From a virus: a stretch of DNA of 39,486 bases. A program made the translations under genes and the position numbers. The first letter of the stretch is position 1. Each line of letters begins with the position of its first letter. The notes below the pieces were generated by a model. It saw only the letters and a program-made list of their open reading frames with translations, made no database searches and was not told the origin of the DNA. The stretch is from positions 1 to 39,486 of IMG/VR virus record IMGVR_UViG_3300025728_000019. One strand, given 5' to 3'. Positions 12,888 through 16,156 of the stretch are shown piece by piece.

Positions 12888-12917
12888 TTGCACTAAAGTG
12901 CTTTGGTGTAGTAATCT
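12888..12917 (+). promoter_or_regulatory. Promoter-like sequence with embedded palindrome
   Basis: TTGCAC at 12888-12893 and TAATCT at 12912-12917 with an 18-base spacer. The -35 region overlaps GCACTAAAGTGC (12890-12901; arms GCACT/AGTGC), an operator-like palindrome. It is followed 70-75 bases later by a terminator, before any gene. Confidence 0.4.
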
Positions 12918-12956
12918 AAAGATAGTCGATCAATGGCTTTCGGGCTGACGATCAAA

Positions 12957-12993
12957 ACGCAAGGCCGGGGACTCAACACCCGGCCTTTTGCGT
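12957..12993 (+). terminator. Rho-independent terminator before the DUF7455 gene
   Basis: AAGGCCGGG (12961-12969), nine-base loop, CCCGGCCTT (12979-12987) then TTTT ending in TTGCGT; the flanking ACGC/GCGT can extend the stem with a small bulge. Good GC-rich stem plus U-tract. It lies 25 bases upstream of the next gene, so it could end a short RNA, attenuate readthrough into 13018, or both. Confidence 0.7.
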
Positions 12994-13017: not shown

Positions 13018-13302
13018 ATGGCTGCTGATCTTGACAAGCCCAGCTTGAACGCGTCACACCGCTGCGATGCCTGCGGATCAAGGGCCTACGTGCGAGTCAA
13101 CATCGAAACCGGCATCAACGACGCCGGCTACGTGGACAACGGCGAACTGTTTTGGTGCTGCCACCACGCGAGAGAGCACATGCCAGTCATCAAAGCCCGA
13201 TCAATCGTGCTCCACATACTCGACGAAACCCGATTCCTCACAGAGCACGTCAAGGATGACCACTGGGTTGAAGGTCAAGCAGCGAAGAAGCCAGGAACAT
13301 GA
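13018..13302 (+). CDS. DUF7455-like zinc-binding protein
   Basis: 94 residues from an ATG preceded by GGGAGG (13006-13011). 'HRCDACGSRAYVRVNI' and 'GELFWCCHHAREH' give the C-x2-C ... C-x-H-H arrangement, and 'LDETRFL' near the end completes the pattern of DUF7455, a small protein widespread in actinobacteria and their phages. No function is established. It follows the terminator at 12957-12993 and has its own good ribosome-binding site. Confidence 0.82.
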   Translation: MAADLDKPSLNASHRCDACGSRAYVRVNIETGINDAGYVDNGELFWCCHHAREHMPVIKARSIVLHILDETRFLTEHVKDDHWVEGQAAKKPGT

Positions 13303-13484
13303 CCTACAAACACACGCCCAGCATCCGGACCATAGCGGAAACCGCTGACACGGAACTGCTCACCGGCTGCATCACCCACCTCGACGGCACCCTCGACCGC
13401 ATGCAAACCGCGTCCGCACGGTTAGCCGTCATGCGAGCCATCCAAAACTTGAACGGCGCCCGAAAAAACATCGGACCACGATAG
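13299..13484 (+). CDS. Small early protein, unknown function
   Basis: 61 residues, basic and helical ('IAETADTELLTGCITHLDGTLDRMQTASARLAVMRAI' pattern). Coupled to the DUF7455 gene by a 4-base overlap. It ends exactly where the structured gene-free region begins. Confidence 0.58.
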   Translation: MTYKHTPSIRTIAETADTELLTGCITHLDGTLDRMQTASARLAVMRAIQNLNGARKNIGPR

Positions 13485-13819
13485 TTCACTGTTCAACACG
13501 AGTGAACAAAACAAAGTATTGAACAAACTTCCTGCACCCGGTGAAGCTGGATGACGTACCAGTGATGGTTTCCGTCCATGTCAAGCCCTGACAGCTGCTC
13601 ATCTGAACATGGGCTGCCGGGTGCAGGAACAAAACTTGCTGAGCCCCGCACCAGGGGATGCACCAGCAAGGCAGGTAAGCCATTACCTCAGAGCCGCAGA
13701 CGTGCGGCAAATGGCACGCCCTCCCCGGTCTCATCTAATCTAAACGATCCTGGGGCTCGGGCACGGACTGGACGCAGACACGGGCGCCCACCAGCTTCAA
13801 GTGCTGGCAGTCCACTCGC

Positions 13820-13893
13820 ATCGTCTTGGTGTAGTGGTAGCCCATCGGTCTCCAAAACCGAAAGCGCGGGTTCGATTCCCGCAGACTTTGCCA
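13820..13893 (+). tRNA. tRNA-Trp (anticodon CCA), degenerate acceptor and D stems
   Basis: Anticodon arm TCGGT-CTCCAAA-ACCGA (13845-13861) is perfectly paired with anticodon CCA at 13852-13854. The T arm GCGGG-TTCGATT-CCCGC (13866-13882) is canonical, and CCA is encoded at 13891-13893. The acceptor stem pairs at five of seven positions only: ATCGTCT against AGACTTT leaves mismatches at positions 2:71 (U-U) and 3:70 (C-U). The D stem has a mismatch at 11:24. So the 3' two-thirds is a good tRNA and the 5' part is not. It may be a working but odd tRNA, a decaying one, or a tRNA-like domain of the surrounding RNA. Confidence 0.75.
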
Positions 13894-14011
13894 AAACACG
13901 TACCCGAAACGTATAGCTCCCACGGGAGAGCATCAGCCGGGAACGCAACACCGCAACTTATCGCCCCACGTTCAGCGGAAACAAGAAGAACAGGGCACCT
14001 TTTTCGAGCCA

Positions 14012-14028
14012 TTAACTCTCAGAGTTAA
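14012..14028. promoter_or_regulatory. 17-base palindrome upstream of a small membrane protein gene
   Basis: TTAACTCTCAGAGTTAA is a perfect palindrome around a central C. It could be an operator or an RNA hairpin (7-bp stem, loop TCA). A run of five T at about 14000-14004 precedes it. GTTCAC at 14031-14036 can pair with GTGAAC at 13502-13507, which could close the whole upstream RNA. Confidence 0.4.
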
Positions 14029-14056
14029 CAGTTCACCCTTGAGCAAGGAGCGCACC

Positions 14057-14218
14057 ATGTACAAGCCTGTCATGACCTCACTAGGTGTCATCTTCACGCT
14101 GGCAACTGTCACGCTGCTTGTACTAGGCATCTGGGTTGAGGACGCTCGGTTCTACTACACCGCCATTGTCTCGGGGATGCTCACTGCGGGGGCTTGGATT
14201 GGCTTGGTGGGAGCATGA
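14057..14218 (+). CDS. Small membrane protein
   Basis: 53 residues from an ATG with a strong AAGGAG site at 14045-14050. Two membrane segments: 'LGVIFTLATVTLLVLGIWV' and 'FYYTAIVSGMLTAGAWIGLV', joined by a short charged loop (VEDAR). It is not in the lysis module and has no holin-like position. Overlaps the next gene by 4 bases. Function unknown; exclusion or signalling at the membrane is possible only as inference. Confidence 0.7.
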   Translation: MYKPVMTSLGVIFTLATVTLLVLGIWVEDARFYYTAIVSGMLTAGAWIGLVGA

Positions 14219-15835: not shown

Positions 15836-16053
15836 GGGTAAGCCGCGAGCTAACCAACACTTATAACCAAAGCCAGCAAATAGCCGGAATGGTTATTATC
15901 CGAGAACCGATAAGCCATGTTGCCGTACGTGCACATCCCCAAATGTCACCGTACGGCAACACGAAGCCGAAACAATAGCCAAACGGCTAGAGTTCCGGCA
16001 TCTCACCCATAACTAAATAGCGTCCCGAAGCGAACATGAGCGCTAGGGAGCAT
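15836..16053 (+). ncRNA. Candidate structured RNA leading into tRNA-Asn
   Basis: About 220 gene-free bases directly upstream of tRNA-Asn. Stems seen: ATAACCA/TGGTTAT (15863-15869/15890-15896); TTATC/GATAA (15896-15900/15909-15913); an 11-bp perfect stem GTTGCCGTACG/CGTACGGCAAC (15919-15929/15950-15960) with an inner ACAT/ATGT pair; TAGCC-AAAC-GGCTA (15976-15989) inside GCCG/CGGC (15966-15969/15996-15999); TAGCG/CGCTA near 16018-16045. The motif AGCC recurs at least six times. It resembles the 13484 region in style, not in sequence. It could be a separate ncRNA or an unusually long processed tRNA leader. Confidence 0.45.
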
Positions 16054-16125
16054 TGGTCACTAGCTCAACGGCAGAGCAACGCACTGTTAATGCGTCGGTT
16101 CGTGGTTCGAATCCACGGTGATCAG
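16054..16125 (+). tRNA. tRNA-Asn (anticodon GTT)
   Basis: A full cloverleaf: acceptor TGGTCAC/GTGATCA (7 pairs, one G-U), D stem GCTC/GAGC, anticodon arm ACGCA-CTGTTAA-TGCGT (16079-16095) with GTT at 16086-16088, and T arm CGTGG-TTCGAAT-CCACG (16101-16117). The discriminator is G, as usual for Asn. CCA is not encoded, unlike the Trp-type tRNA upstream. Confidence 0.93.
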
Positions 16126-16156
16126 CTCATAACCCCTGCCAACCTTGGAGGCTGCC

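Follow-up and report, generated by a model that had tools for sequence, protein, structure and literature searches.

The question raised by this locus is whether a gap of about 570 bases between the early and late genes of a phage encodes a large structured RNA enclosing a tRNA, as proposed in a first-pass annotation, and what kind of RNA this could be. The window, by which we mean the whole stretch of 39,486 nucleotides analysed, is an IMG/VR virus record from a tailed phage; its terminase, portal and head protease genes lie at 18-22 kb, and a recombination exonuclease is encoded at 4-5 kb.

The gap and its relatives

Positions 13485-14056 do form a gap, bounded by the stop codon of the ORF 13299-13484 and by the ATG at 14057. 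The perfect 13-nt arms announced for this gap (13529-13541/13617-13629, 75 nt apart) are present, and the tRNA in its middle was identified by both ARAGORN and Rfam RF00005 as tRNA-Trp (13820-13893). At least nine inverted repeats had been claimed; those of at least 7 nt that we listed were only six, and shorter ones are present in the MFE structure. The sequence 13484-14060 folds with a z-score of -3.72 and its part 13484-13820 with -3.74, each beating 100 of 100 dinucleotide-preserving shuffles. Long open frames traverse the gap, including one of 112 aa (13578-13916); five gap-crossing frames searched against PHROGs and four searched against Pfam gave no match.

Relatives were fetched through the metallophosphoesterase encoded downstream (phrog_20266), which gave 57 viral loci and seven bacterial genomes (Pseudarthrobacter, Arthrobacter, Paeniglutamicibacter, Mycetocola and Leifsonia), cited below by their L numbers. 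A search of Micrococcaceae genomes yielded one strong prophage, L093, and a class-wide genome search two weak matches, L098 and L099. We observed that the gaps upstream of the metallophosphoesterase in the relatives are mosaics of short conserved blocks that come, go and change places. In L003, whose neighbouring protein is 87% identical, hairpin A runs straight into the 3' part, and nothing corresponds to 13634 to ~13892, which in the window comprises pseudoknot B, the mini-tRNA and the tRNA. A and D alone are kept in L003, L078, L080 and L084, and the full leader is absent in L071 and is therefore dispensable in some relatives. The features of the window are the following.

12888-12917, + strand: promoter-like TTGCAC-N18-TAATCT, upstream setting, outside the RNA; a consensus match only
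12962-12986, + strand: terminator-like hairpin (z -4.18) with a weak T tract, upstream setting, outside the RNA
13485-13527, + strand: window-specific insertion holding the arms of the 5' pseudoknot proposed in the first-pass annotation; missing from L003
13529-13629, + strand: module A, a 13-bp closing stem with inner hairpins and the motifs GGUSAA and GCUGCC
13635-13670, + strand: module E, a hairpin CTTGCTG/CAGCAAG with CCCC/GGGG inside
13673-13715, + strand: module B, an H-type pseudoknot with stem 13673-13677/13684-13688, 13679-13683 pairing with 13711-13715, and an inserted hairpin 13693-13698/13703-13708
13718-13762, + strand: module F, a hairpin common to the window and L039
13765-13814, + strand: miniature tRNA-like element with a 6-bp acceptor GGACUG/CAGUCC, a T arm CCAGC-UUCAAGU-GCUGG and no anticodon arm
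13820-13893, + strand: tRNA-Trp (CCA), with two acceptor mismatches and an encoded CCA
13898-13941, + strand: module G, a probable pseudoknot, ACGU/ACGU with CCCG/CGGG, from sequence comparison by eye
13951-13996, + strand: module D, a pseudoknot in which CCGC/GCGG is crossed by GCCC/GGGC and GUUC/GAAC, ending ~60 nt before the ATG at 14057
14003-14033 (approximate), + strand: window-specific insertion, palindrome TTAACTCT-C-AGAGTTAA; missing from L003
15836-16130, + strand: second structured tRNA-bearing RNA, with a 19-nt inverted repeat, module H at 16011-16050 and tRNA-Asn at 16054-16126

Conserved modules, pseudoknots and tRNA-like elements

The outer stem of module A keeps 12-14 consecutive base pairs in 13 loci despite complete turnover of its sequence, the variants including CCTGCACCCGG, CCTGTGGTGTGG, TTCCTGACGCCGG and TTGGTGCGCGTTGG. 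All 132 cells are paired in these 13 loci; shuffles have a mean of 78 and a maximum of 104. In most loci the module starts no more than a few bases from the stop codon of the preceding gene. We also noticed that GCUCAU in module A and AUGAGC in the leader module H, both invariant, could pair over a long range in L005, L006, L036, L059 and L093.

In module B a 5-bp stem encloses the loop AGCCAU, five bases of which pair with a 3' AUGGC, and the inserted hairpin has the loop GACG. All 238 cells are paired in 18 loci (15 distinct sequences), with two-sided changes at 13 of the 16 pairs. The covariation score is 0.63 versus 0.22 in shuffles and no slid version comes close; the alignment relied on a model of the two ordinary stems and so is biased for these stems, but the pseudoknot pairs lie outside the model. 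In the Paeniglutamicibacter prophage L016/L072 the pseudoknot has become CCUAU/AUAGG with unchanged geometry, with a tRNA-like element just downstream. Since a generic scan for B-like pseudoknots by base pairing alone gave 69 control matches and is not discriminating, only sequence-supported members were counted. BLAST of the module B consensus against phages returned chance matches only (Vibrio and other phages), the pattern AGGAGGTCASTRTCTC matched unrelated coding sequence in L088-L091, and L065, where the module B pattern matched in coding-like sequence, was discarded.

Module D has 98% of its cells paired in nine loci, with two-sided changes at two pairs. The same crossing topology is formed by a second type of sequence in L005, L010, L036, L061 and the Arthrobacter phage Seahorse; the copies of Seahorse and L005 are identical across ~40 nt. 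Further types, read by eye only, seem to be present in L008/L038 and L011/L012. Module G has the counterpart CUUGG/CCAAG in L039 and L084, also compared by eye. DNA-level roles for B and D (operator, cruciform or packaging site) were rejected because their crossed, compensated pairs point to RNA.

The conserved pseudoknots, at 13673-13715, 13951-13996 and probably 13898-13941, thus differ from the one first named. The arms of the latter (13484-13490/13501-13507 and 13490-13499/13516-13525) are complementary, but 13485-13527 is wholly absent from L003, the closest relative with the region. Likewise, the closure of the whole element through GTTCAC (14031-14036), a motif that abuts the window-only insertion ~14003-14033, found no comparative support. 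Both proposals rest on window-only insertions and are thus unsupported, and the 5'-3' closure was rejected. These two insertions, which flank the conserved RNA, are rich in inverted repeats (GTTCACT/AGTGAAC and TTAACTCT/AGAGTTAA) and are possibly DNA operator sites.

Between B, or another leader, and D we found either a tRNA or an element with a 6-7 bp acceptor and a canonical T arm. Counting genuine tRNAs, 28 acceptor-plus-T-loop elements are present in 33 regions (15.7 kb), where shuffles gave 0.05 and 0.19 are expected from other DNA of the same loci. Their lower half varies from 27 to ~70 nt, and the anticodon loop is often absent or defective: the arm is missing in the window (13765-13814), L052, L093 and TripleJ, and loops of abnormal size occur in Faja and in Seahorse and Isolde ('anticodon tt'). 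The element 13765-13814, 92% identical to L052 8172-8224, consists of acceptor and T arm only and was called neither by ARAGORN nor by the Rfam tRNA model (RF00005). The tRNA-Trp genes of the window and of L010 (3508-3580) both have mismatched pairs at acceptor positions 2 and 3.

Besides B, two other leaders were recognized, module H (AACUNAAUAG-stem-AACAUGAG-stem') and module I (GGAGGYC, a GNRA-capped hairpin, then CGCCGGCAC), both with exchanged stems. From the leader end to the tRNA or tRNA-like element the distance is 0-6 nt in about ten B cases and in the H and I cases. In L007 (5604-5640) the module H hairpin is inverted relative to its relatives, with the loop CTCATGTT and not AACATGAG, as if the DNA had been flipped. 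The second RNA of the window, 15836-16130, folds with a z-score of -5.95, and its tRNA-Asn was called by ARAGORN and by the RF00005 covariance model.

Together, these data answer the first part of the question. Judging from compensatory changes in relatives, 13529-13998 is a structured RNA and not a gene, and that the gap holds a real, conserved structured RNA seems to us practically certain. The large RNA enclosing a tRNA at the early/late junction, as first proposed, is borne out by covariation in independent relatives, conserved synteny and the lack of any recognisable protein family; unrelated, non-covarying sequence in homologous phages had been named as evidence against it, and the opposite was seen. 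Instead of a single closed fold, we prefer to see in the RNA a mosaic whose modules are independent; in the window these are hairpin domain A, pseudoknot B, the miniature tRNA-like element, tRNA-Trp and pseudoknot D. The modules, which are exchanged between phages, follow one another as A; a leader B, H or I; a tRNA or tRNA-like 'top half'; then D. This shared module structure, with compensatory changes across independent phages, points to a new modular RNA family.

Occurrence in Arthrobacter phages and comparison with known RNAs

A BLAST search with the full regions of the relatives showed that at least 25 cultured Arthrobacter phages (about 26 distinct names) carry modules belonging to this system; these phages include Seahorse, Richie, Bauer, Auxilium, Isolde, Raphaella, Faja, EvePickles, AbbyDaisy, TripleJ, MargaretKali and Gorpy. 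In most of these genomes the RNA lies in the last 0.3-2 kb, with the last early gene, often annotated as helix-turn-helix, on its 5' side and an HNH endonuclease or small ORFs on its 3' side. A survey of 46 Arthrobacter phages in 2017 reported tRNAs in one cluster only (PMC5513430). In the named phages the RNA is currently annotated as undetermined tRNAs, 'tRNA-His with intron' or ORFs; the following three ORFs are situated within the structured RNA and are unlikely to be genes.

L100 799-999: Auxilium gp90
L104 867-1055: EvePickles gp93
L101 993-1157: Isolde gp94

On L070, a 5-kb virus contig, modules B and I adjoin tRNA-Lys and tRNA-Asn (370-684); since no metallophosphoesterase is seen nearby, the RNA may extend beyond phages of the metallophosphoesterase type.

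Promoter-like and/or terminator-like sequences, consensus matches only, were found upstream of the RNA in nearly all of 20 loci; a stricter consensus scan of the + strand around 12888-12986 detected neither promoter nor terminator. The order of a promoter-like and then a terminator-like sequence, in the window and in most relatives, suggests that a late promoter is controlled by antitermination. In the named phages a motif AAGTG(T) is located between these two sequences or close to them.

Only tRNA was matched when the window and its relatives were compared with Rfam at gathering and permissive thresholds. The GOLLD covariance model gave no match in the window and 12 related records at E ≤ 10, nor any above the cut-off in 14 control genomes, which makes the positive control for this search weak, and the ROOL model gave none, as was also the case for its positive controls. 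GOLLD and ROOL, which the first-pass annotation had brought forward, therefore serve as analogies only. We found no description of the RNA in the open-licence literature and are confident that it is absent from Rfam.

Among known RNAs, GOLLD and ROOL are nearest in kind to the window RNA, being ornate, phage-borne and tRNA-associated. GOLLD is a tRNA-associated RNA of phages and prophages, several hundred nt long, with pseudoknots and a variable region that can hold tRNAs (PMC12286853). The window RNA resembles GOLLD (RF02032) in being phage-encoded and tRNA-associated, as membership would require, pseudoknotted and hundreds of nt long; it differs in that its modules shuffle individually and in its tRNA-like top halves with dedicated leaders. 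ROOL (RF03087) is likewise a large pseudoknotted phage RNA near tRNA genes, whereas the window RNA has no single conserved monomer fold. The HDV-like theta ribozymes of gut phages are pseudoknotted, lie beside phage tRNAs and were proposed to help tRNA maturation at the 3' trailer (PMC10879173). They too adjoin phage tRNAs, but module B sits 5' of the tRNA and is an H-type pseudoknot of simple build, with a single hairpin inserted. The nested double pseudoknot with P1 to P4 and a catalytic C that defines theta ribozymes was not found in module B, where no helix separates the pseudoknot strand from the closing strand.

In eukaryotes, a tRNA-like element (mascRNA) marks the site of RNase P cleavage at the 3' end of MALAT1, and a tertiary structure directly upstream gives protection. 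The arrangement of tRNA-like element and upstream structure is similar here, in an unrelated organism and sequence, and cleavage would have to be presumed. Plant RNA viruses carry tRNA-like structures with upstream pseudoknots at the 3' ends of their RNA genomes; here also a pseudoknot neighbours a tRNA-like element, but inside the transcripts of a DNA phage.

Possible role of the RNA

We tentatively favour the view that the RNA is a late-transcript leader, cut at its tRNA and tRNA-like elements by RNase P and RNase Z, with the pseudoknots protecting the ends. The RNA would be the 5' or an intercistronic part of the late transcript, made after the polymerase has passed the promoter-proximal terminator. 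Its tRNAs or tRNA-like top halves would attract RNase P and RNase Z and so be the sites of cleavage. The 3' end created on the upstream fragment would be sealed by the leader pseudoknot or hairpin, and the 5' end created on the late mRNA would be protected by pseudoknot D. A stable noncoding RNA and a protected late mRNA would result, and genuine tRNAs such as tRNA-Trp would be freed by the same cuts. RNase P, RNase Z and the CCA-adding enzyme mainly read the upper half of a tRNA. Since this half is retained and the lower half is free to vary, a processing signal fits better than decoding. The structure itself, its early/late position, the promoter- and terminator-like sequences, the excess of acceptor-plus-T-loop elements and the leaders abutting tRNA-like elements all argue for processing. 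Against it, no tRNA-like element follows directly in about 8 of the 18 B loci (in the window module F intervenes), and most modules are missing in some relatives (L003, L078, L080 and L084; the leader in L071).

Other explanations have to be weighed against these data. One could argue from the long open frames across the gap that there is no functional RNA, the hairpins around an acquired tRNA being incidental, or that the gap holds a short protein gene missed in annotation; given that A, B and D covary, that the frames matched nothing in PHROGs or Pfam, and that relatives have deleted or swapped modules inside them, this is extremely improbable. An unlikely proposal is that D, together with A, acts as a regulated 5' UTR of the small ORF and the metallophosphoesterase gene, the remainder being an inserted tRNA cluster. 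D does end close to the next start codon in D1 loci, and A plus D stand alone in L078, L080 and L084, but the ties of the B, H and I leaders to tRNA-like elements would be left unexplained and the Seahorse D precedes a different gene.

The RNA could also be a standalone, abundant ornate RNA of the GOLLD/ROOL kind, a multimeric cage or scaffold acting during lysis with tRNAs as passengers in a variable linker; being phage-borne, tRNA-associated, pseudoknotted and hundreds of nt long fits what is described for these RNAs. However, neither family was matched in the window or relatives, and a loose mosaic with losses of single modules (L003, L078) is unlike a fixed cage monomer, so that we regard this as unlikely. 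A role in counter-defence, in which top halves and odd tRNAs would be decoys, stabilised by the pseudoknots, that titrate or outlast anticodon nucleases of the host or a tRNA-sensing defence, would account for the degenerate anticodon arms, the frequent Trp-type tRNAs and the high turnover of the lower half; it is quite unlikely, as a decoy for anticodon nucleases should keep the anticodon loop that most of the tRNA-like elements lack. Just as improbable is a processive antitermination element like the HK022 put RNA, a nascent RNA modifying the polymerase to read the late operon. The place of the window RNA, where the late operon begins and beside a promoter-terminator pair, is suitable, but an RNA downstream of the terminator cannot act on that terminator, several relatives lack most modules, and tRNA-like elements are unexpected in such a role.

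Going back to processing of the late transcript, it is conceivable, and we put this forward with greater reserve, that phages of Arthrobacter and its relatives place strings of RNA cassettes, each a dedicated structured leader with a tRNA or an anticodon-less top half, where the late transcript begins, to act as programmable signals for processing and protection. If true, this would be an RNA-punctuation system new to DNA phages. The RNA system belongs to many culturable Arthrobacter phages, in which it was previously annotated merely as odd tRNAs, hypothetical ORFs or empty gaps; several small ORFs annotated within it are probably not genes. Its natural anticodon-less tRNA top halves offer material for studies of RNase P and RNase Z recognition, and these phages provide an easily tested setting for the role of large tRNA-bearing phage RNAs, a question shared with GOLLD and ROOL.
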